Assembly (NCBI GenBank): GCA_030148915.1
Contig: JASBSN010000094.1
Location: 1-54,618, forward strand
Direction of reading: 5' to 3'
Source: Thiogranum sp.
GTDB lineage: Bacteria > Pseudomonadota > Gammaproteobacteria > DSM-19610
DNA: 54,618 nucleotides
Positions within the stretch are counted from its first letter, which is position 1. Each line of letters begins with the position of its first letter. This document shows positions 21,668 to 48,943 of this stretch, in pieces. The position numbers and the translations under genes were made by a program. The notes under the pieces were generated by a model. It was not told the origin of the DNA. It did no database searches and saw only the letters and a list, made by a program, of their open reading frames with translations.

Positions 21668-23431
21668 TCAACTATCCCCAGTATTACCCTCCGTATCCAA
21701 ATATCCCTCCCGCAACAAGTAGAGGTAGATATCCTGTGCCGCCTCCATAGGAGTCAGACCCTCTGTATTCACCCGTAGCTCCGCATGCTCCGGAATCTCG
21801 TAAGGATCGCTGATCCCGGTAAATTCTGGAATCTCACCCCGCCTGGCCTTTGCGTACAGCCCTTTGCGATCACGCGCTTCGCAAGTTTCGAGGGACGTTG
21901 ACACGTGGATTTCAATAAAATCGCCGTGCGGCTCGATCATTTCCCGCACAGAGCGGCGCATCTGGGTATACGGCGCGATCGGCGCGCAAATCGCCACACC
22001 GCGGTTCTTCGTGATTTCACTGGCAACGTAACCTATCCGGTTTACGTTGATGTTACGGTGCGCTTTCGAGAAACCCAGCTCACTCGACAGGTGCTGGCGG
22101 ACAATGTCGCCGTCCAGCAGCGTCACTGGCCGCCCCCCGGCTTCCAGCAACTTGGCATAGATGATTTTCGCCAGTGTGGATTTTCCAGAACCGGAGAGCC
22201 CGGTGAAGAACAGGGTAAAGCCCTGCCGGGGCCTGGGCGGATACACCTTGCGCAACTCACGGACCACTTCTGGGAAGCTAAACCACGTCGGAATTTCCTC
22301 GCCGCGCACCAGGTCTCGCTTCAGCTGGGCATCGGTGTATTCGGCATACTCCAGCCGCTGAGATTCGATCTCGGAAATAGGCATGAACCGGTCGCGCACA
22401 GGAACGTAATGCATGGTTTCAACAGGCACAGCCTGGATTTGAAGATCGTCTTTGTACTGCGCCACCAGCTCCTGGGCAGCATACGGTGCATAGAACGTGT
22501 CTGCCTCAGCGTCACCGGCAGGCGCTCCGTTTCCGGCCGGCGGCGGATAAGCGTGCTTGGGGCCGATGATCATGTGCGAGCAACCGTAATTCTGACTGAC
22601 AATCGCATGCCAAAGCGCCTCTCGCGGCCCCGCCATGCGCATGGCCAGCGGCAGCAGGGACAGCATGGCGAGATTCTGCGGGTAATGCTGCCGGACTGCC
22701 TGATAGCAATGCACGCGCGCGTAGTACTGCAGATCACCGGGTTTGGTCACGCCGACAGTCGGGTGCAGCAGGATGTGGCCCTGGATATTCTTGGCAGCCT
22801 GCAAGGTGATATCGCGCTGCAGGCGGTGCATGGGCTTGGATGTCTGGAAGGCCACTACCCGCCGCCAACCCTTTTTCCGGAACAGGGCCCGCATTTCTTC
22901 GGGGGTGTCCCAAAAGCTTTCAAAGTCGTGGTGCACTGGCAACTGGATACCCTCGATGCTGCCGCTGACGTACACCGGGTTGACCATCTCCCGCAGGTAG
23001 CGCACGCCAGGGTGCCGATCCGAGGTCGTACCGTAAACCTTCTCCGCTTCCCGGCTCTTGTCCGGTTGCCAGATATCGCCCACGGTCAGGACGGCGGGCA
23101 TGAAGCCCTCGCCATCACGAAGAGCGATTTTCGAGCCTTTTTGGAGTTTTTCGGCAAACTTTTCTGCAATATCAAGAACTATCGGAATTGGCCACACGGT
23201 TCCGTCAGCCAGCCGCACAGTGTCAACAACAGCTTCATAATCTGCTTGGTCCATGAAGCCCGTGAGCGGCGAAAACGCACCATTCATCAAGAGTTCCAGG
23301 TCGCAGACCTGTCGCTGACTCAGGGTAAGCGACAGAAACCCCTGAGACTCCGTTTTCAGGACTTCCGCCCGCTCAGCATCCACCAGGAGGTCGACCAGCT
23401 TATTACCGTGAGGCGGCACAAAATATTCCAT
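21668..23431 (-). CDS. Bifunctional sulfate adenylyltransferase/adenylylsulfate kinase
   Basis: A 587-residue fusion of an ATP-sulfurylase (about 1-390) and an APS kinase (about 400-570), which together convert sulfate and ATP to APS and then PAPS in the cytoplasm. The kinase half looks intact: P-loop FTGLSGSGKSTLAKII, LLDGDIVRQHLSSELGFS, ITKNRGVAICAPIAPY. The sulfurylase half is recognisable (HPTVGVTKPGDLQYYARVHCYQ, LLPLAMRMAGPREALWHAIVSQNYGCSHMIIG) but its catalytic motifs differ from the norm. QTRNPxHRAH is QTSKPMHRLQ at about residue 198, and GRDHAGP is GPKHAYP at about 290. Activity of that half is therefore uncertain. PAPS from this enzyme would feed the three sulfotransferases of the locus. 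AAGAGA precedes the ATG. Confidence 0.93.
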   Translation of the reverse strand: MEYFVPPHGNKLVDLLVDAERAEVLKTESQGFLSLTLSQRQVCDLELLMNGAFSPLTGFMDQADYEAVVDTVRLADGTVWPIPIVLDIAEKFAEKLQKGSKIALRDGEGFMPAVLTVGDIWQPDKSREAEKVYGTTSDRHPGVRYLREMVNPVYVSGSIEGIQLPVHHDFESFWDTPEEMRALFRKKGWRRVVAFQTSKPMHRLQRDITLQAAKNIQGHILLHPTVGVTKPGDLQYYARVHCYQAVRQHYPQNLAMLSLLPLAMRMAGPREALWHAIVSQNYGCSHMIIGPKHAYPPPAGNGAPAGDAEADTFYAPYAAQELVAQYKDDLQIQAVPVETMHYVPVRDRFMPISEIESQRLEYAEYTDAQLKRDLVRGEEIPTWFSFPEVVRELRKVYPPRPRQGFTLFFTGLSGSGKSTLAKIIYAKLLEAGGRPVTLLDGDIVRQHLSSELGFSKAHRNINVNRIGYVASEITKNRGVAICAPIAPYTQMRRSVREMIEPHGDFIEIHVSTSLETCEARDRKGLYAKARRGEIPEFTGISDPYEIPEHAELRVNTEGLTPMEAAQDIYLYLLREGYLDTEGNTGDS

Positions 23432-37809: not shown

Positions 37810-38334
37810 TCAGTCATGCACGCCCGGCTCGACGAACTCTTCCACCGCTTCGGGCGTGGCGCGCACCGAACCGCTGGACAACACCGGCGCGGCGTCAAGT
37901 TCACCGGCATCCATCAGCGAGGCAATGCGCTGCAGTGAGGCCAGCAGCATAGTCTGCTCCCAGTCATCGAGCTCCTGAAAGCGGGAGGCAAAGCGATCCT
38001 GCAGCAGCGGTGGAGAAGACGCCAGGCATTCCCGGCCGGCCGGCGCCAGTGCTACCATGACCCGGCGGCGGTCACTTTGCGAGCGCAAGCGGGTGACCAG
38101 CGCGCGCTGTTCCAGCCGACTGACGATATCGGTGACCGTGCCCTGGCTGAGGCTGACCTGTTCGGCCAAAGCGCCGGCAGATAGGCTGCCGTCACCGAGC
38201 GCCTTGAGAATCAGCGCCTGCGGGCCGGTCAGTCCGTGGCTCTGCACCAGCTGACGCGAGTGCAGGTCGACGGCACGGATCACGCGGCGCACCGCGCTGA
38301 GCACCTGTTCCACCTTGTCGTCAGCTAATGCCAT
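37810..38334 (-). CDS. MarR family transcriptional regulator
   Basis: A 174-residue winged-helix repressor: LTGPQALILKALGDGSLSAGALAEQVSLSQGTVTDIVSRLEQRALVTRLRSQSDRRRVMVALAPAGRECL is the MarR DNA-binding core, with the wing Asp-Arg-Arg-Arg. A 30-residue acidic C-terminal tail is extra. It is divergent from the ten-gene osmolyte operon, so it most likely controls that operon and itself, as the MarR-type regulators EctR and CosR do for other compatible-solute genes. A perfect inverted repeat overlapping its own TATAAT-like -10 lies 17 bases upstream of the ATG. Confidence 0.92.
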   Translation of the reverse strand: MALADDKVEQVLSAVRRVIRAVDLHSRQLVQSHGLTGPQALILKALGDGSLSAGALAEQVSLSQGTVTDIVSRLEQRALVTRLRSQSDRRRVMVALAPAGRECLASSPPLLQDRFASRFQELDDWEQTMLLASLQRIASLMDAGELDAAPVLSSGSVRATPEAVEEFVEPGVHD

Positions 38335-38525: not shown

Positions 38526-39014
38526 ATTAATCATCAGCAGACGGCCGGCGGCCTCCCCGCCCGCCGCTCACGCCTGTCGCAGCACAAGGCCGGTCGGCGC
38601 CTGCGCGTCTGTTTGGCCTCTATAGTATTGGCGCTGGTTCCTGTCGCCGCCGGCGCCGCGGTCCAGCTCAGTACCGATACGCCGGTGGCAACCGCGGGGT
38701 ATTATCAATTGCACTGGACGGCGGATAGCCCGCGGGTCACCATTGAAGTGCGCACCCCGGAGTCAGCCGCCGCCACGGTGATTTACTCGGGGCCGGACCG
38801 TGCCACGGTCGTCTCGGGTCAGACCGACGGCGTCCGCACCTATCGCGCCGGTGAAATCGGCGCCGATGGCAAAGTATCCACCTGGAGTGAACCCGTGACC
38901 GTCACCGTCGCCCACCACCCGCTGAGCCGCGCACTGGCGTTCTTTGCCATCGGCGCTGTGGTGTTTTGCGCCACCTTGCTGCTGATCGCCCAGGGCGTAA
39001 GGGGCTTGCGGTGA
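38526..39014 (+). CDS. Small envelope protein with fibronectin-like domain and C-terminal membrane helix
   Basis: I do not recognise the family. The frame reads about 162 residues from ATT at 38526, which sits five bases after a strong GGGAGAGG; no ATG or GTG is available, and TTG at 38613 is the only alternative but has no ribosome site. From the ATT the N-terminus is a basic region with several Arg followed by a signal helix (CLASIVLALVPVAAGAAV). A small beta-sandwich follows (VQLSTDTPVATAGYYQLHWTADSPRVTIEVR) and then a C-terminal membrane helix (ALAFFAIGAVVFCATLLLIA). Its stop overlaps the GTG of the M20 hydrolase gene. As first gene of the osmolyte operon it may assist the transporter or sense the envelope. 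A TATAAA-like hexamer at 38454-38459 is a possible promoter element. Confidence 0.7.
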   Translation: MNHQQTAGGLPARRSRLSQHKAGRRLRVCLASIVLALVPVAAGAAVQLSTDTPVATAGYYQLHWTADSPRVTIEVRTPESAAATVIYSGPDRATVVSGQTDGVRTYRAGEIGADGKVSTWSEPVTVTVAHHPLSRALAFFAIGAVVFCATLLLIAQGVRGLR

Positions 39015-40252
39015 GCGCCGGCGCGTTACGCATCGACGCCGAACGCCTGCGCGCGGACGTAGACCATCTGGCCAGTATCGGCCGCCGGCAGGATCAGGGC
39101 ATTTACCGGATGGCATTTTCCGATGGCGACATGGCGGCGCGCGCCTGGCTGCTGGGGCGCATCGAGGCGGCCGGCCTCGAGGTCCACCAGGACGGTGCCG
39201 CCAATATTCATGCGCGCCTGGGTTGGCGCGAAGATGTCGCCGGCGTCATGGCCGGATCCCACATCGACACCGTGCCCGGCGCCGGGCATCTCGACGGCGC
39301 CCTCGGCGTGCTCTGCGCGCTGGAAGCGCTGCGCGCCCTGAAAGACGCCGGCACCCCTTTGAAACGGCCCCTCGAGGCCACCGCCTTCAGCGACGAAGAA
39401 GGTCGTTTTGGCGGTTTATTCGGCTCGCAGGCACTGGCCGGGCAGGTCACACCGGAATACCTGCATAATGCCCGTGACCTCGACGGCGTGACGCTGGCCG
39501 AGGCGATGGCCGCGCGCGGCCTCGAGGCGCGCGCGGCGCTGCATGCCCAACGCCCGCCCGGCAGTATTCACGCCTATGTCGAACTGCACATCGAACAGGG
39601 GCCGGTACTCGACCGCCAGGGGGTGTCGGTTGGAATTGTCGATGCCATTACCGGTCTGTTCAAATGGCAGGTCACCCTGAGCGGCGCCGCCAACCACGCC
39701 GGCACCACGCCAATGGGTATGCGCGCCGACGCCTTCCAGGGGCTTACGGAGTTCGCCGGCCAGATTGACCGCGTCCTGGAAGAGCACGGCAGCCCGGCCA
39801 GTGTGGCTACCATCGGGCGTGTCGTATTGCACCCCGGCGCGGCCAACGTGGTGCCCGGCCAGGCAGTGTTCTCGCTGGATGTCCGCGATACCGACGCGCG
39901 CACGCTGGAGCGCCTGGCGGGCGCCTTTCAGCGCACGCTGGCGGCAATCGGCCGGCGTCGCGGCCTGATGTTCGAGTACGAGGTGCTCAGCGAAATCGCG
40001 CCGGTCCCCTGCGCCCATCTGGTGCGCAATGCGGTCGAACAGGCGGTCGAAGCGCTGGGTATCGAAGCCACGCACATCAACAGCGGCGCGGCCCACGATG
40101 CCCAGGTGATCGCGGCCGTCGCCCCGGCGGGGATGATCTTTGTCCCCAGCAAAGAGGGCCGCAGCCACTCGGCCGCCGAATGGACGGCCTGGAACGATAT
40201 TGAAGCGGGCGCCAACGTCCTGCTGCACACACTGCAACGACTGGCGGGTTAA
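39011..40252 (+). CDS. M20 family N-carbamoyl-L-amino-acid hydrolase-like amidohydrolase
   Basis: The 413-residue Zn-dependent enzyme belongs to the HyuC/AllC group, which removes carbamoyl groups from N-carbamoyl amino acids or allantoate. Motifs in order are AGSHIDTVPGAGHLDGALGVL (about residue 80), the metal and base Glu in FSDEEGRFGGLFGSQAL (about 126), YVELHIEQGPVLDRQGVSVGIV (about 190), GAANHAGTTPMGMRADAF (about 228), INSGAAHDAQVIA (about 356) and GRSHSAAEW near the end. GTG at 39011 overlaps the upstream stop (GTGA) and has AAGGGG. With the carbamoyltransferase in the same operon, a natural role is hydrolysis of a carbamoyl-amino acid. The substrate is inferred. Confidence 0.92.
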   Translation: MSAGALRIDAERLRADVDHLASIGRRQDQGIYRMAFSDGDMAARAWLLGRIEAAGLEVHQDGAANIHARLGWREDVAGVMAGSHIDTVPGAGHLDGALGVLCALEALRALKDAGTPLKRPLEATAFSDEEGRFGGLFGSQALAGQVTPEYLHNARDLDGVTLAEAMAARGLEARAALHAQRPPGSIHAYVELHIEQGPVLDRQGVSVGIVDAITGLFKWQVTLSGAANHAGTTPMGMRADAFQGLTEFAGQIDRVLEEHGSPASVATIGRVVLHPGAANVVPGQAVFSLDVRDTDARTLERLAGAFQRTLAAIGRRRGLMFEYEVLSEIAPVPCAHLVRNAVEQAVEALGIEATHINSGAAHDAQVIAAVAPAGMIFVPSKEGRSHSAAEWTAWNDIEAGANVLLHTLQRLAG

Positions 40253-40990
40253 ATGAAAGATCAGGAACAAAAACAGCCACCGGCGTTTACCGATGTCGAC
40301 CCCTTACGCGACACCTATCGGCGCTCGATCACCCACTTACCGGCCATCAAACGCTCGCTGGAGCACCATAATACCGCCCTGCTGTGCATCGATATGCAGT
40401 ATCTGGACGCCGCCCGCGGTCACGGGGTGTTCGCCAGCGCCGAAAGCGCCAACATGCCCCCCGAGGCGCAGGATTACTATTTCGATCGTCTGGAGCAGGC
40501 CGTGCTGCCGAATGTCGCCCGCCTGCAGGCGGCGTTTCGCGCTCGCGAGCTGGAAGTGATCCACACCCGCATTCAGTCGTTGACGCCGGACGGTCGTGAC
40601 CGGGGGCCCGGCCATAAGCGGCTGGGCCTGCACGCGCCGCCGGGCTCCAAAGACGCCGAATTTCTCGAAGTGGTGGCGCCGCTGGAAAACGAAATCGTCA
40701 TCAACAAAACCGCCAGCGGCGTGTTCAACTGCACGAATATCGAATACGTGTTGCGCAATCTGAAAATCGACGGCTTATTCGTGGTCGGGGTCTATAGCAA
40801 CGAGTGCGTCTCCACCGCCATCCGGGACGCCTGCGATCTCGGCTTCTACGTCACACTGATTGCCGACGGCTGCACCACCGTGACCCCGGAACTGCAAAAA
40901 GCCACCCTGACCACCATGAAAGACCGCTATGCGCGCGTAATGACCACCGAGGACGCTATCGCCGAACTGCACGCAGTGATCGACCCGTGA
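40253..40990 (+). CDS. Isochorismatase-fold cysteine hydrolase (amidase)
   Basis: A 245-residue protein with the cysteine hydrolase triad: Asp in ALLCIDMQYLD (about residue 46), Lys in VINKTASGVFNCTNI (about 153) and Cys in VGVYSNECVSTAIRDACDLGFYVTLIADGC (about 185). The family includes N-carbamoylsarcosine amidohydrolase, biuret and ureidoacrylate hydrolases and nicotinamidases, all acting on amide or carbamoyl groups. A 40-residue N-terminal extension precedes the fold. The ATG directly follows the M20 stop. A role as amidase on the terminal carboxamide or on a carbamoyl-sarcosine-type compound is inference from the operon. Confidence 0.88.
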   Translation: MKDQEQKQPPAFTDVDPLRDTYRRSITHLPAIKRSLEHHNTALLCIDMQYLDAARGHGVFASAESANMPPEAQDYYFDRLEQAVLPNVARLQAAFRARELEVIHTRIQSLTPDGRDRGPGHKRLGLHAPPGSKDAEFLEVVAPLENEIVINKTASGVFNCTNIEYVLRNLKIDGLFVVGVYSNECVSTAIRDACDLGFYVTLIADGCTTVTPELQKATLTTMKDRYARVMTTEDAIAELHAVIDP

Positions 40991-42438
40991 ATAGCGTCAA
41001 CAGCGCCATTCTCGACGCCTCGACCGGCTGGGCCATTCTCGCCGGTTTTTCGCTGCTGTGGGTCGCGCTCGGCTGGTACTGGGGGCGCCACGCCGGACAG
41101 CTGGACGAATATATGCTCGCCGGCAGGCGCGTCGGTCTGGCGCTAGGCACGGCCACCGCCATGGCCACCTGGGTGACCAGCAACACCACCATGGCCGCCC
41201 CGCAACTGGCCTTTCAGATCGGCATTTGGGGTATGCTCGGTTATTCCCTGGGCTCGCTCGGGCTGCTGATGTTCGCACCGCTGGCGCGCCGTATCCGCAG
41301 TCTGATGCCGAACGGTTACACCAGTGGCGATTTCGTGCGCATCCGCTACGGCAAGACCGCCTGGCGGGTGTTTCTCGCCATTTCGCTGTTCTACAGTCTC
41401 GGCTGGCTGGTCAGCATGGGCATGGCCGGCGGCATCCTCATCCACGCCCTGACCGGCATTCCCTACCATTACGGCATGACGGTGATTCTGGCAATCTGTG
41501 TCGGCTACACTCTGCTCGGCGGCTTCCGCGCCGTCATTGGCACCGACTTTATCCAGGCGTTACTGATTCTGGTCGGCCTGGTGGTGATCGCGGTCCTGGC
41601 GATCGGCAAAGTCGGCTTCGAGAGCATTCACACGGCGGTGCTCGCTGAGCGCCCGGAGCTGCTCGACCTGTTGATGCCGGCGGCCATCATGTTCTTGTTC
41701 AACAACCTGCTGTTTGGCATTGGCGAAGTGTTTCACTCCAATGTGTGGTGGAGCCGGGCGTTCTCGTTGCGCGAGGGGGTCGGCTTCAAAGCCTATACGC
41801 TGGCGGGTCTGCTGTGGGCGCCGATTCCGATTGTCGCCGGCTTTGTCGCCCTGGCGGTGCCGGCCCTGAATATCAACATACCGGCGGCCGATATGGTCGG
41901 CCCGATGGTAGCCGCCGACCTGCTCGGCGTGACCGGCGCCGTGCTGGTGCTGGTGATGGTGTTCGCGGCGCTGTCGTCCAGCCTCGACTCACTGCTGGCG
42001 GCGACCAGCATCCTGATTGTCGAGGACATCTACCGGCGTCACCTCAAACCGCAGGCGAGCGCCGAAGACATGCGCCGCGCCGCGGCGCGCGTTATCCTCG
42101 GGCTGGGCGTACTCACCTGGATTCTGTGCGCACCGCGGCTGACGACGCTGGCCGAACTGTTGTATTTCACCGGCGCTTTTGTCGCCAGCACCATCTGGCC
42201 GATTGCCGCCGGTCTGTTCTGGCAGCGCACGAATCCCACCGCCGCCGTCGCCGCCATGGTGCTCGGCAGCGGCGCCGGTCTGTACAGCTATTTCGCCATC
42301 GGTTTCTATGTCGCCGCGCTGGTCGGCGCGGCGGTCTCGATGCTCTGCGTGCTGTTGGGGACCTGGCTGGCGCCACGCGAGTTCGACTGGGCGCAGCTGC
42401 ATGAGGAACACCCGTTGCACCTGGGGGCGCGGTCATGA
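40987..42438 (+). CDS. Sodium:solute symporter family transporter
   Basis: This SSS-family carrier has 483 residues from GTG at 40987, which overlaps the upstream stop (GTGA); the longer frame from 40804 runs through the hydrolase gene and is not real. About 13 hydrophobic helices are visible. Family stretches are WYWGRHAGQLDEYMLAGRRVGLALGTATAMATWVTSNT, SLGLLMFAPLARRIRSLMPNGYTSGDFVRIRYG, TLLGGFRAVIGTDFIQALLIL and VFAALSSSLDSLLAATSILIVEDIYRR. The last contains the Ser-Ser-Ser of the Na2 site. The subtype resembles urea/amino acid-type members, but the solute is unknown. It likely imports a carbamoyl/amide solute handled by the neighbouring hydrolases. Confidence 0.9.
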   Translation: MNSVNSAILDASTGWAILAGFSLLWVALGWYWGRHAGQLDEYMLAGRRVGLALGTATAMATWVTSNTTMAAPQLAFQIGIWGMLGYSLGSLGLLMFAPLARRIRSLMPNGYTSGDFVRIRYGKTAWRVFLAISLFYSLGWLVSMGMAGGILIHALTGIPYHYGMTVILAICVGYTLLGGFRAVIGTDFIQALLILVGLVVIAVLAIGKVGFESIHTAVLAERPELLDLLMPAAIMFLFNNLLFGIGEVFHSNVWWSRAFSLREGVGFKAYTLAGLLWAPIPIVAGFVALAVPALNINIPAADMVGPMVAADLLGVTGAVLVLVMVFAALSSSLDSLLAATSILIVEDIYRRHLKPQASAEDMRRAAARVILGLGVLTWILCAPRLTTLAELLYFTGAFVASTIWPIAAGLFWQRTNPTAAVAAMVLGSGAGLYSYFAIGFYVAALVGAAVSMLCVLLGTWLAPREFDWAQLHEEHPLHLGARS

Positions 42439-42557
42439 CGATATCCGTGACTGTTTTTTCTGCGCTGGTGCTGGGCGCACTGGCAATCACCGCGGTCGCA
42501 CCGCTGTTGCTGCTCGTGCTGCTGATCCGTGACTGGAAAAGGAAGCAATTATGGTAA
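42435..42557 (+). CDS. 40-residue single-helix membrane protein (symporter accessory candidate)
   Basis: A short frame begins with ATG at 42435 inside the symporter stop (ATGA overlap) and ends with TAA at 42555-42557, seven bases into the carbamoyltransferase gene. The product is a short hydrophilic N-terminus, one long hydrophobic helix (ALVLGALAITAVAPLLLLVL) and a basic end (IRDWKRKQLW), that is, a one-pass membrane protein with its C-terminus in the cytoplasm. Small accessory proteins next to SSS symporters are known. The double overlap makes chance unlikely. Its exact role is unknown. Confidence 0.72.
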   Translation: MTISVTVFSALVLGALAITAVAPLLLLVLLIRDWKRKQLW

Positions 42558-43609
42558 ACAAGCTCGGCCGCAAACTGCTCATTCCGCTGGAGGGTCAGCC
42601 GCTCGATATTCAGGGCTTCGAGCAGCCGCGCGAACTGCTCAACCGCATTCCGGAAGACCTCACCTCGCTGCTCGATCTGGTGCAACGCCCGGTGGTCTCG
42701 GCCAGCCAGTTCAGCCGTGCGCAGTTGTTACAGCTGGCGCGCCTGGCCTCGCGCTACGAAACCCAACCACAGCACAGCGTACGGCCCCTGACCGGCAAAA
42801 TACTGGTCAGCGCCTTCTACGAGCCGAGCACCCGCACGCGGTTGTCGTTCGAAAGCGCCTGGCACCGCCTCGGCGGTGACATCATGTCGATTACCGATCC
42901 CGCCTCGACCGGCATTGCCAAAGGTGAGTCGTTATTCGACATCGGCGAGATGCTCAACCACTACAGCGACCTAGTGGTGTTGCGCGACAGCAATGAAAAC
43001 GCCGTCTACGAAATGCTCGAGTCGCTGCGCATTCCTATTGTCAACGGCGGCAACGGCACCGACGAGCACCCCACCCAGGCGATGGCCGACATCTACGCCC
43101 TGCTCAAATGGCGCCCGGCGCTGTGCGATGCGAGCATCGACAGTGGCCAGCGCATCCGCTTCGCCATTATCGGCGTGCCCGGGGTCATGCGCACGGTGCG
43201 CAGCCTGCTGATCCTGATGAGCCAGTTCGCGCCGGCGTTCGAGGAAGTGGTGATTATCACCGACGAAGCGGAACCTTTCGCCGCGGGGCAGCGCGAGGAG
43301 CTGGAGAGCGCCGGCCTGTGTTTTCGTATCAGCGATGATATGCAAAAAGAACTGCCGCAGCTCGACGTGATCTACATCAACACCATCGCCTGGCTCGGCG
43401 ACGATTACCAGGAACTCGGCAGCCGCTACGGCCTGAGCGCCGCCTCGCCGCTGAAGGCCGGCGCGGCGATTCTGCACCCGCTGGCGCGCGGCGCCGAGTT
43501 GGCGCGCGATCTCGACGGCACCGAACACAATTGGTATTTCGCCCAGGCGCGCGGCGCGGTGTTCATGCGTATGGCGCTGCTCTCGACCATTCTCAAAACC
43601 TTTGCCTGA
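42551..43609 (+). CDS. ATCase-like carbamoyltransferase with altered acceptor site
   Basis: A 352-residue member of the aspartate/ornithine carbamoyltransferase superfamily. The carbamoyl-phosphate site is intact: STRTRLSFESAWHRLGG (about residue 93), Lys in STGIAKGESLFD, Arg in VVLRDSNENAV, HPTQAMADIYAL (about 173) and Arg in VMRTVRSLL. The loop that in E. coli PyrB holds Arg229 and Gln231 for the aspartate side chain is replaced (VIYINTIAWLGD, about 273), and HPLPR is HPLAR. A different amino-group acceptor is therefore expected, and glutamine is my proposal. An N-terminal extension of about 45 residues is also present. AAGGAAG precedes the ATG. It lies 19 bases upstream of the amidotransferase gene. 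Confidence 0.9.
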   Translation: MVNKLGRKLLIPLEGQPLDIQGFEQPRELLNRIPEDLTSLLDLVQRPVVSASQFSRAQLLQLARLASRYETQPQHSVRPLTGKILVSAFYEPSTRTRLSFESAWHRLGGDIMSITDPASTGIAKGESLFDIGEMLNHYSDLVVLRDSNENAVYEMLESLRIPIVNGGNGTDEHPTQAMADIYALLKWRPALCDASIDSGQRIRFAIIGVPGVMRTVRSLLILMSQFAPAFEEVVIITDEAEPFAAGQREELESAGLCFRISDDMQKELPQLDVIYINTIAWLGDDYQELGSRYGLSAASPLKAGAAILHPLARGAELARDLDGTEHNWYFAQARGAVFMRMALLSTILKTFA

Positions 43610-45679: not shown

Positions 45680-46495
45680 ATGAATCACTCCACTGTCCAA
45701 CAGAACTACGGCCAGGACCCACTCAGTGTCCGCGAGACCGACAAATACAAGGAAGAGTACGTACACTCTTTTGTGGAAAAGTGGGATCAACTGATCGACT
45801 GGGACGGACGCGCCCAGGCCGAAGGCGATTTCTTCATCCGCACCCTGAAAGAGCACGGCGCCAGGAAAGTACTCGATGTTGCCACCGGCACCGGCTTTCA
45901 CTCGGTGCAACTGTTAAAAGCAGGCTTCGAGGTCACCAGCGCCGACGGCAGCCCGGAAATGCTCTCCAAGGCGTTCAATAACGCCCGCAACCGCGGCCAT
46001 ATACTGCGCACCGTGCACGCTGACTGGCGCTGGCTGAACCGCGACGTTCATGATCTGTATGATGCGGTGATCTGCCTGGGCAATTCTTTCACCCATCTGC
46101 ACGAAGAAAAAGACCGCCGCAAGGCGCTGGCCGAATACTACGCCACGCTGCGCCACGACGGCATTCTCATCCTCGACCAGCGCAATTACGACGCCATCCT
46201 CGATCAGCAGATCGAGCCGACACACAATTATTACTATTGCGGCGAAGATGTCTCCGCCTCTCCCGAGTACGTTGACGACTCGCTGGCGCGCTTCCGCTAC
46301 CGTTTCACCGACGGGTCGACCTATCATCTCAATATGTTCCCGCTGCGCAAACTCTACATGCAGCGTCTGATGCAGGAAGTCGGCTTTCAGCGGGTCACCA
46401 CCTATGGCGATTTCAAGGAGACTTATCGCGAGGGCGAGCCGGACTTTTTCATTCACGTCGCCGAGAAGCGCTACGTCCAGGAGGGCCCGCAATGA
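45680..46495 (+). CDS. Glycine/sarcosine N-methyltransferase
   Basis: The enzyme (271 residues from ATG at 45680, after GAGG) methylates glycine to sarcosine and on to dimethylglycine, the first steps of de novo glycine betaine synthesis in halophiles. Evidence is the typical N-terminal VQQNYGQDPLSVRETDKYKEEYVHSFVEKWDQLIDW, motif I VLDVATGTGFHSVQLLKAGFEVTSADGSPEML, the segment AVICLGNSFTHLHEEKDRRKALAEYYATLRHDGILILDQRNYD, and NYYYCGEDVSASPEYVDDSLARFRY. Its stop overlaps the next methyltransferase start by four bases. Confidence 0.95.
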   Translation: MNHSTVQQNYGQDPLSVRETDKYKEEYVHSFVEKWDQLIDWDGRAQAEGDFFIRTLKEHGARKVLDVATGTGFHSVQLLKAGFEVTSADGSPEMLSKAFNNARNRGHILRTVHADWRWLNRDVHDLYDAVICLGNSFTHLHEEKDRRKALAEYYATLRHDGILILDQRNYDAILDQQIEPTHNYYYCGEDVSASPEYVDDSLARFRYRFTDGSTYHLNMFPLRKLYMQRLMQEVGFQRVTTYGDFKETYREGEPDFFIHVAEKRYVQEGPQ

Positions 46496-47331
46496 GTCAG
46501 GCCTACTCCCAGGTCGTGAAGACCGCGCAGGACTATTACAACAGCGACGATGCGGATAATTTTTACTTCCATATCTGGGGCGGGCAGGACATTCACATCG
46601 GCAGCTACGAGTCCGCCGATGAGGATATCGCCATCGCCTCGGAGCGCACCGTGACCCACATGGCCGAGCAGCTGCACGGACTCAATGCCGATACCCGCGC
46701 CATCGATATCGGCGCCGGTTACGGCGGCGCCGCGCGCCGCCTGGCCGGTAGCCGCGGCTGTCATGTCAGTTGTCTGAACTTGAGCGAGGCGCAGAATGCG
46801 CGCAACCGTGCCCTCACACAGGCCGCGGGCTTGAGTGACCGACTGGAGGTGATCGACGGCAGTTTCGAGGCGATCCCCTTCCCGGCGAATCACTTCAACC
46901 TCGCCTGGTCACAGGATGCACTGCTGCATTCCGGCCAGCGCGCCCGGGTGCTGGCCGAAGTCGACCGGGTGCTGACGCCCGGCGGTGAATTCATTTTCAC
47001 CGACCCCATGCAGGCCGACAATTGCCCGGAAGGCGTGCTGCAACCGGTGTTGGAACGCATCCATCTGGAAACGCTCGGTTCGTTTGGCTTTTACCGCCAA
47101 CAGGCCGAGCGCCTGGGCTGGGAGGAGGTTCGTGTCACGGACCTCACGCCCCAGTTGCTGACTCATTACAGCCGGGTGCGTCAGGAACTGGCCAACCGCC
47201 GCGATGAGCTGCGGGATAAAGTCTCCGAAGCTTACATCGAGCGCATGATCCAGGGGCTGGGCCACTGGGTCGACGCCGCTTACAACGGCTATCTGGCCTG
47301 GGGCATACTCCACTTCCGCAAACCGCGCTAA
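46492..47331 (+). CDS. Sarcosine/dimethylglycine N-methyltransferase
   Basis: A 279-residue SAM methyltransferase that completes betaine synthesis (sarcosine to dimethylglycine to glycine betaine). VVKTAQDYYNSDDADNFYFHIWGGQDIHIGSYES is characteristic of the family. Motif I is AIDIGAGYGGAARRLAGSRGCHVSCLNLSEAQN. It is followed by DGSFEAIPFPANHFNLAWSQDALLHSGQRARVLAEVDRVLTPGGEFIFTDPMQ. It pairs with the preceding GSMT through a four-base overlap, as in Ectothiorhodospira-type betaine operons. Confidence 0.95.
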   Translation: MSQAYSQVVKTAQDYYNSDDADNFYFHIWGGQDIHIGSYESADEDIAIASERTVTHMAEQLHGLNADTRAIDIGAGYGGAARRLAGSRGCHVSCLNLSEAQNARNRALTQAAGLSDRLEVIDGSFEAIPFPANHFNLAWSQDALLHSGQRARVLAEVDRVLTPGGEFIFTDPMQADNCPEGVLQPVLERIHLETLGSFGFYRQQAERLGWEEVRVTDLTPQLLTHYSRVRQELANRRDELRDKVSEAYIERMIQGLGHWVDAAYNGYLAWGILHFRKPR

Positions 47332-47350: not shown

Positions 47351-48943
47351 ATGGACTCCTACAGCACCACGCGGGGCAATCGTACGCTGCGCGACCGTCA
47401 TGGACGCATTGTCCTCGATCTCAACCCGGCGGTGTTTTTCAGCGCCACGCTGTTGATTGTGCTGTTCGTCGGGCTCAGCCTCTTTTATCTGGATGATTTC
47501 GCCGCCGGCGTCGATGGCCTGCAAACCTGGATCGCCAATCAGAGCGGCTGGTTCCTGGTACTGACCGTCAACCTGGTGCTGGCATTTTTGTTCTACCTGG
47601 GGTTCGGTCCCTACGGCAACGTCCGCCTGGGCGGCGCCGATGCGAAACCCGAGTTCAGCCGCCCTGCCTGGTTTGCCATGCTGTTTTCCGCCGGTATGGG
47701 GATCGGCCTGATGTTCTACGCCGTGGCCGAACCGATGTACCACCTGGCAAAGCCGCCGCACGGCGCGGCCCCGGGCACGCTGGGCGCCTACAAGGACGCT
47801 ATCAAAACCACCTTCCTGCACTGGGGGCTGCACGCCTGGGGAGTGTACGCGCTGACCGGCCTGGCGCTCGCCTATTTCAGTTTCAACCGCAACCAGCCGT
47901 TGAGTATCCGCGCGATCTTCCAGCCACTGCTGGGTGATCGCATCCACGGATTCTGGGGGCACCTGATCGACGTGCTCGCCAGCGTTGCCACCTTGTTCGG
48001 CGTGGCGACCTCGCTGGGGCTCGGCGTGACACAGATCAACGCCGGTCTTAACCAGTTGTTCGGCCTGACTGTCAGCGGCCCGGTGCAGATCGCGCTGATC
48101 GGCGCTATCACCGCGGTCGCCACGCTGTCGGTAGTGCTGGGCCTGGACAAAGGCATCAAACGGCTGTCCATACTTAACATGACGCTGGCGGTGGCCTTGC
48201 TGCTGTACGTGTTGCTGATCGGTCCGACGCTGTTTGTGCTCAATGGATTTGTCGAAAATCTGGGGTTATACCTCAATGACTTTTTCTATCTCAGCTTCTG
48301 GAACGAAACTTATACGCAGGGGCACTGGCAAAACGGCTGGACGGTATTTTTCTGGGGCTGGTGGATCGCCTGGTCGCCGTTCGTCGGTATGTTTATCGCC
48401 CGCATTTCCCGCGGGCGCAGCATACGCGAGTTCCTGGGCTTCGTGCTGTTGGCCACCACGCTGCTGACCTTTGTCTGGTTGTCGGTGTTCGGCGATTCGG
48501 CCATGTATGTGGAGCTGGCCGGGCCGGGCGGTCTGGTCGAGGCGGTGCAACAGGATCTGGCGCGCTCGCTGTTCGCCTTCCTGGACAAACTGCCTGCCGC
48601 TGGCGGCCTGGCGGGCCTGCCCGACTGGCTGATTTCGGGCAGCGGCATCCTCGCCACGCTGGTGATTGTCAGTTTCTTCGTCACCTCCTCGGACTCCGGC
48701 TCGCTGGTGATCGACATCATCACCGCCGGGGGCCATCCCAATCCGCCCGTGGCGCAACGTATTTACTGGGCGAGCGCCGAAGGCCTGGTGGCCGCCGTGC
48801 TGCTGGTCGGCGGCGGTCTGACGGCGCTGCAGACCGCCGCCATATCCGCCGGTCTGCCCTTCGCCGTGCTGGTGCTGCTGATGATGCTCAGTCTGCAGCG
48901 GGCGCTGGCCGCCGACTACCCCTTGAGCGCGGCCTGTCGCTAG
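47351..48943 (+). CDS. BCCT family betaine/choline/carnitine transporter
   Basis: A 530-residue secondary transporter for betaine-type solutes, usually driven by Na+ or H+ and activated by hyperosmotic stress. About 12 helices are seen, with GFGPYGNVRLGGADAKPEFSRPAWFAMLFSAGMGIGLMFYAVAEPMYH (the GMGIG substrate-site stretch), LHWGLHAWGVYALTGLALAYFSFN, and the BCCT signature GWWIAWSPFVGMFIARISRGRSIREF. SSDSGSLVIDIITAGG comes later. The protein ends soon after the last helix, so it lacks the long cytoplasmic regulatory tail found in some BCCT carriers. It is the last gene of the osmolyte operon, and its end overlaps the convergent metallo-hydrolase by four bases. Confidence 0.93.
   Translation: MDSYSTTRGNRTLRDRHGRIVLDLNPAVFFSATLLIVLFVGLSLFYLDDFAAGVDGLQTWIANQSGWFLVLTVNLVLAFLFYLGFGPYGNVRLGGADAKPEFSRPAWFAMLFSAGMGIGLMFYAVAEPMYHLAKPPHGAAPGTLGAYKDAIKTTFLHWGLHAWGVYALTGLALAYFSFNRNQPLSIRAIFQPLLGDRIHGFWGHLIDVLASVATLFGVATSLGLGVTQINAGLNQLFGLTVSGPVQIALIGAITAVATLSVVLGLDKGIKRLSILNMTLAVALLLYVLLIGPTLFVLNGFVENLGLYLNDFFYLSFWNETYTQGHWQNGWTVFFWGWWIAWSPFVGMFIARISRGRSIREFLGFVLLATTLLTFVWLSVFGDSAMYVELAGPGGLVEAVQQDLARSLFAFLDKLPAAGGLAGLPDWLISGSGILATLVIVSFFVTSSDSGSLVIDIITAGGHPNPPVAQRIYWASAEGLVAAVLLVGGGLTALQTAAISAGLPFAVLVLLMMLSLQRALAADYPLSAACR

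Follow-up and report, generated by a model that had tools for sequence, protein, structure and literature searches.

A carbamoyltransferase-amidotransferase gene cassette of Thiogranum and other Gammaproteobacteria as a candidate pathway for the osmolyte N-carbamoyl-glutamine amide

The window analysed here is a stretch of 54,618 nucleotides from Thiogranum sp. (contig JASBSN010000094.1). It holds a real, uninterrupted open reading frame for a carbamoyltransferase (CTase), located between a symporter gene and an AsnB-type amidotransferase gene; a small-protein gene, two hydrolase genes and a divergent regulator gene lie upstream, and two methyltransferase genes and a transporter gene lie downstream (Table 1). 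The symporter gene has a GTG start and overlaps the amidohydrolase gene by 4 bp, and, judging by gene starts and overlaps, the region from 38.6 to 48.9 kb appears to be one operon. As the original prediction had stated, the CTase gene is not near pyr or arg genes: pyrB was found on contig C43 and argF on contig C55. Elsewhere in the window, the minus-strand stretch 962-21403 (GC about 49-55% vs 60-65%) encodes exosortase EpsH, sulfotransferases and an ASPIC/UnbV FG-GAP protein and is followed by ATP sulfurylase/APS kinase (21668-23431). Judged by its genes, this region looks like a sulfated-polysaccharide cluster.

Table 1. Genes and selected codons of the CTase locus in the window, with the basis of each assignment.
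Feature	Position	Strand	Basis or remark
MarR-family regulator, divergent	37810..38334	-	Pfam MarR/MarR_2; kept in Thiogranum, G264 and G034 loci
Small secreted/anchored protein (hydrophobic N-terminus, ectodomain, C-terminal TM)	38613..39014	+	No Pfam match
M20-family N-carbamoyl-L-amino-acid hydrolase	39011..40252	+	3n5f, 284 bits; proposed N-carbamoyl-Gln -> Gln
Isochorismatase-family amidohydrolase, Asp/Lys/Cys visible	40253..40990	+	Pfam Isochorismatase; proposed CGA amidase
SSS-family Na+/solute symporter	40987..42438	+	Pfam SSF; proposed solute uptake
Carbamoyltransferase (CTase), 352 aa	42551..43609	+	Proposed L-glutamine N-alpha-carbamoyltransferase
K124 codon (= E. coli PyrB K84, 80s loop), kept	42920..42922	+	Alignment
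R214 codon (= PyrB R167, alpha-carboxylate contact), kept	43190..43192	+	Alignment; role from PMC4581275
T278-I279-A280 codons (= PyrB R229-V230-Q231)	43382..43390	+	Alignment; beta-carboxylate anchor lost, roles from PMC4581275
A312 codon (= PyrB P268, Pro of HxLP)	43484..43486	+	HPLARG in 63/63
AsnB-type glutamine-dependent amidotransferase, 668 aa	43629..45635	+	Pfam Asn_synthase, GATase_7; invariant Cys2
Glycine/sarcosine N-methyltransferase (GSMT)	45680..46495	+	NF051855, 498 bits, over cut-off
Sarcosine/dimethylglycine N-methyltransferase (SDMT)	46492..47331	+	NF041675, 381 bits, below 550-bit cut-off
BCCT betaine/choline transporter	47351..48943	+	Pfam BCCT, 610 bits

Pfam placed the CTase in the two-domain transcarbamylase family (OTCace_N 125 bits, OTCace 40 bits), and the protein scored below all NCBIfam equivalog cut-offs. 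The solved structures nearest to it are aspartate carbamoyltransferases (ATCases). Structure prediction had been proposed as a check, and the AlphaFold2 model, a monomer of a protein whose active site is shared between subunits, has the ATCase fold, which is also the nearest by Foldseek (mean pLDDT 82, pTM 0.84; TMt about 0.83). Alignment to E. coli PyrB (sequence from the MG1655 record) demonstrated that S52-T-R-T-R, K84, R105, H134, Q137, R167-T and R296 (PyrB numbering) are kept, so that the retention of the carbamoyl-phosphate motifs and of the 80s-loop Lys claimed in the original prediction was confirmed. The predicted changes at Arg229/Gln231 and from HPLPR to HPLAR were found in the same alignment: R229 is replaced by Thr, Q231 by Ala and P268 by Ala, and three residues are deleted at the PyrB K-E-R stretch, just after T278-I279-A280. 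STRTR, HPTQ, MRT[VI]RS, Y[IM]N-x-I-[AV]-W and HPLARG are present in all 63 distinct full-length members of the CTase family, and the R105 equivalent in all aligned cassette CTases.

The family carries the signature of the carbamoyl-phosphate site (SxRT, HPxQ and the beta4 Arg). It departs from HxLP, which is common to all known transcarbamylases (PMC4581275), in that HPLA is found in 63/63, though by its fold and remaining motifs the CTase still belongs to the superfamily. The loss of this proline might lower the activity. The 240s-loop motif RxQxER, which occurs in all known ATCases (PMC4581275), is also absent; Y[IM]N-[A/S/T/K]-I-[AV]-W stands there in 63/63, together with the deletion. As the replacement is invariant throughout the 63 members, it is a fixed replacement and not decay. 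In ATCase, R167 and K84 position the alpha-carboxylate of the acceptor, and R229 and Q231 anchor the beta-carboxylate of aspartate (PMC4581275). By these aligned residues, the aspartate site of the CTase is half lost: the beta-carboxylate anchor is gone, as expected from the original claim of a lost aspartate-binding loop, but R167 and K84 remain, so that the claim was too broad. The expected acceptor would thus be an alpha-amino acid whose side chain carries no carboxylate, and it is very probable that the CTase uses something other than aspartate.

In a maximum-likelihood tree, the CTase family formed its own clade with 100/100 support, separate from the genomes' own PyrB and also from ArgF and YgeW; the branches are long, which leaves the deeper joins unsure. 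A phylogeny had been proposed alongside the original prediction, with bona fide PyrB as the group to be watched, and the CTase lies outside it. The family members scored 174-199 bits against the 236.95-bit cut-off for ATCase (TIGR00670), and a separate PyrB above this curated cut-off was present in 17/17 cassette genomes tested, where the cassette CTase fell below it. The separate clade and the missing RxQxER support the new acceptor of the original prediction, although its wording of "direct support" was too strong. Other identities were tried and rejected. PyrB itself does not fit by cut-off, motif and clade. For OTCase and PTCase, the scores were 94 bits vs 306 and 77 vs 500, and the DxxxSMG of OTCase or the PTCase loop is absent; for the knotted transcarbamylases, they were 31 bits vs 500 (YgeW) and 28 vs 288 (AOTCase). 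Ureidoglycine transcarbamylase (UGTCase) was ruled out because it has H(T/S)LP where the CTase family has HPLA (63/63).

Close relatives of the CTase were found in Thiogranum, Thiohalophilus thiocyanatoxydans and uncultured Ectothiorhodospiraceae, and further ones in a Cellvibrionaceae bacterium, Alteromonas ponticola and a Spirochaetia MAG. Of 369 gammaproteobacterial genomes drawn evenly, 25 had matches at E <= 1e-70, most of them above 360 bits; those of G181 and G290, like the second G264 copy, fall into a degenerate group. A phylum-wide draw of 398 genomes added only one more CTase genome (G539), and a search for carriage on plasmids returned ordinary PyrB-like matches only. The degenerate paralogues (L074 3857-4927, L075 2486-3688 and L076 7212-8363) fall in the same clade, lack STRTR and/or HPTQ and are not surrounded by a cassette. 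From these losses, they are apparently catalytically dead transcarbamylases.

The gene set around the CTase is fixed. The order M20 carbamoylase, isochorismatase-type hydrolase, SSS symporter, CTase and AsnB was found here and in related loci, and AsnB adjoins the CTase in all family loci reaching far enough, G428 excepted (L144 6908-7993), where the CTase stands without AsnB or hydrolases alongside. CTase and AsnB are co-inherited, their distances being correlated across 42 loci (Mantel r 0.87, 0/2000 permutations). The M20 carbamoylase and the amidase occur in nearly every cassette, and even the divergent cassette of G539 retains the symporter, the CTase, AsnB and an M20 gene. The M20 protein matched the hydantoinase/carbamoylase family model with 382 bits, over the cut-off, and its best solved relative is an N-carbamoyl-L-amino acid hydrolase (Table 1). 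The nearest solved chains to the isochorismatase-family protein are cysteine/biuret hydrolases and N-carbamoylsarcosine amidohydrolase. The symporter is missing from the Ectothiorhodospira cassettes. A homologue of the small protein was found in 28/30 cassette loci with the symporter and in 0/5 without it, and this co-occurrence indicates that the small protein is probably a dedicated subunit or partner of the symporter. The C-terminal TM of this protein type has an HHPLxRAxxFF motif; homologues are, e.g., L023 5884-6459, L025 7851-8408 and L217 10069-10785. Among the loci examined, GSMT and SDMT stand beside the cassette in Thiogranum and G264 only, with BCCT as an addition in Thiogranum. In Ectothiorhodospira, the gene directly downstream of AsnB encodes an MscS channel, and the cassette is flanked by sucrose synthase and a PfkB kinase; in T. 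sulfidiphilus, too, MscS comes after AsnB.

The cassette AsnB formed its own clade (100/100) apart from the NAGGN AsnO, the XrtA-type and the E. coli AsnB, in a tree read without row cas_L023 (a wrong ORF). Its assignment as NAGGN AsnO was rejected, since it scored 306 bits against the 570-bit cut-off of TIGR03104 and lies in a separate clade. As it groups apart from the NAGGN amidotransferase, its acceptor is not readable by homology. The genome of the window also has a NAGGN asnO (922 bits; contig C55, L219 9630-11408) close to argF, and by its gene content the organism may make NAGGN, betaine and N-carbamoyl-glutamine amide (CGA).

No other compatible solute is known to us that combines an N-carbamoyl with a C-amide group. 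CGA accumulates in E. marismortui according to PMC1224877, which cites its finding decades ago in a purple sulfur bacterium. No genes or enzymes for CGA biosynthesis were found in the open-access papers searched, and subscription papers may hold an earlier description. Among the class-wide CTase hits, G124 and G338 encode photosynthetic reaction centres, and the CTase was present in 10/10 genomes of their phototrophic genus. The HiPIP of G391 is identical in 71/71 positions to PDB 1hpi, which we take to be the HiPIP of Ectothiorhodospira vacuolata, and the phototrophic genus was thereby identified as Ectothiorhodospira. With the genus assigned by HiPIP, the cassette occurs in 10/10 genomes of the genus to which the known CGA producer belongs, and the CTase was found in 38/38 good-quality genomes of the family that contains it. 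In G392 (L141 7148-8208), the CTase is split by a frameshift, with neighbours that look intact. betA is absent from G338, G387 and G389, all three of which carry the cassette; E. mobilis and E. marismortui are also without betA (PMC7824335). For Thioalkalivibrio, the work cited in PMC3072093 (Banciu et al., 2005, co-authored by Galinski) gives glycine betaine and sucrose, and in that citation not CGA, as the solutes. At high salt, Thioalkalivibrio versutus D301 strongly raises nitrogen assimilation and glnA but not the betaine-forming genes (PMC9062515); this could be explained, among other ways, by a nitrogen-rich solute such as CGA that has gone unrecognised.

We consider it likely, judging from gene content and residues, that the cassette is a CGA osmolyte pathway in which the CTase acts on L-glutamine, and it is the best candidate so far for such a pathway. 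What follows on acceptor, product, step order, salvage and osmotic regulation is our inference. The CTase would convert carbamoyl phosphate and L-Gln into N-alpha-carbamoyl-L-Gln and Pi, and AsnB would then amidate the alpha-carboxylate of N-carbamoyl-Gln to give CGA. Carbamoylation is placed before amidation because the alpha-carboxylate residues R167 and K84 are kept. When salinity falls, the isochorismatase-type amidase and the M20 carbamoylase would return CGA to glutamine; the symporter, where present, would recover CGA from outside, with the small upstream membrane protein as its probable helper in solute uptake. L-glutamine is suggested as the acceptor by the AsnB, carbamoylase and amidase neighbours and by the taxonomic match to a CGA producer, and its preference over other neutral amino acids is proposed from chemistry and taxonomy. 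The osmolyte-related neighbours (GSMT, SDMT and BCCT, MscS, sucrose synthase and PfkB) also speak for the CGA pathway, as do the three Ectothiorhodospira genomes without betA and the parallel with the NAGGN system described below. Against it, CGA has been documented in E. marismortui only, and the cassette is much wider; the solutes cited for Thioalkalivibrio, the separate grouping of the cassette AsnB and the lost HxLP proline count on the same side.

Several other readings of the cassette have to be weighed. The same two modifications, N-carbamoylation and alpha-amidation, might be made on another alpha-amino acid (Glu, Asn, Ala or Gly) to yield an undescribed osmolyte. The residue pattern would allow it, as just the alpha-carboxylate contacts are kept and the side-chain carboxylate anchor is lost; the second-best NCBIfam model for the M20 protein is N-carbamyl-L-glutamate amidohydrolase ErtE, and many cassette carriers have no CGA record. 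We regard it as unlikely, since CGA is a known compound with both modifications whose producer genus carries the cassette, and a Glu side chain would be expected to need the anionic anchor that is gone here. Scavenging or catabolism of ureido compounds, with the CTase run backwards to form carbamoyl phosphate, would account for two hydrolases and a symporter in one operon, and catabolic transcarbamylases exist (PMC4581275). This is improbable, however: the cassette showed no carbamate kinase, AsnB spends ATP and Gln to build an amide, and Ectothiorhodospira keeps CTase, AsnB, M20 and amidase without the symporter.

The GSMT and SDMT genes directly downstream suggested sarcosine or glycine as the acceptor, that is, a metabolism of N-carbamoylsarcosine or hydantoate tied to the adjoining glycine-methylating enzymes, and the isochorismatase family does include N-carbamoylsarcosine amidohydrolase. 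This acceptor was rejected because the two methyltransferases are lineage-specific, accompanying the cassette in Thiogranum and G264 and not in the other loci examined; AsnB would also be left without a role, so that very little probability remains for this reading. We give still less to a second ATCase or a UGTCase. The nearest solved structures and models are indeed ATCases, but RxQxER is absent and a real PyrB is encoded in 17/17 genomes; the H(T/S)LP of UGTCase is replaced by HPLA in 63/63, and no purine-degradation genes were noticed around the cassette. The least probable of all is a non-catalytic or regulatory relic, for which the missing HxLP proline and the paralogues in G181, G290 and G264 without STRTR/HPTQ might be quoted; in the cassette members, unlike those degenerate paralogues, the carbamoyl-phosphate motifs tested are invariant (63/63).

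If the CGA pathway is the true reading, two genes would be enough to test and engineer it, and the few substrates known for transcarbamylases would gain one more acceptor. Many ATCase-like proteins would need renaming, and Thioalkalivibrio, Thiohalophilus, Thiogranum and others would be expected to contain an osmolyte rich in nitrogen. It would also follow that transcarbamylases can do without the Leu-Pro peptide of HxLP. On balance, it seems probable that the family is a new subfamily of glutamine transcarbamylases in which the HxLP proline is dispensable, widespread in halophilic and sulfur-oxidising Gammaproteobacteria without reported CGA.

Among known systems, ATCase (PyrB) is the nearest by both sequence and structure, and shares with the CTase the fold, the carbamoyl-phosphate site and the R167 and K84 equivalents. 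The CTase differs from it by the lack of RxQxER (R229 to A/S/T/K, Q231 to A/V), the 3-residue deletion, HPLA instead of HPLP, an N-terminal extension of about 40 aa, a different gene context and a separate clade. UGTCase likewise belongs to the ATCase branch and has an altered acceptor site, and the M20 hydrolase in the CTase context is of the allantoate/carbamoylase type. However, UGTCase has H(T/S)LP and S258/K261 (PMC4581275), whereas the CTase family has HPLA and the Y-I/M-N-x-I-A-W loop, with AsnB alongside. The NAGGN system (asnO, ngg, a peptidase and the MarR regulator PA3458) makes a glutamine-derived uncharged amide solute, as is proposed here for CGA. In that system, AsnO adds the C-terminal amide and the divergent PA3458 represses the operon (PMC8070244), and both systems would combine an AsnB-type amidotransferase, an N-capping enzyme, a hydrolase and a divergent MarR. 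By analogy, the cassette MarR may be the counterpart of PA3458. The N-cap is added by a GNAT in the NAGGN system and would be added by a carbamoyltransferase in the cassette, and the separate clade of the cassette AsnB argues for a parallel use of the NAGGN logic and not for membership in it.
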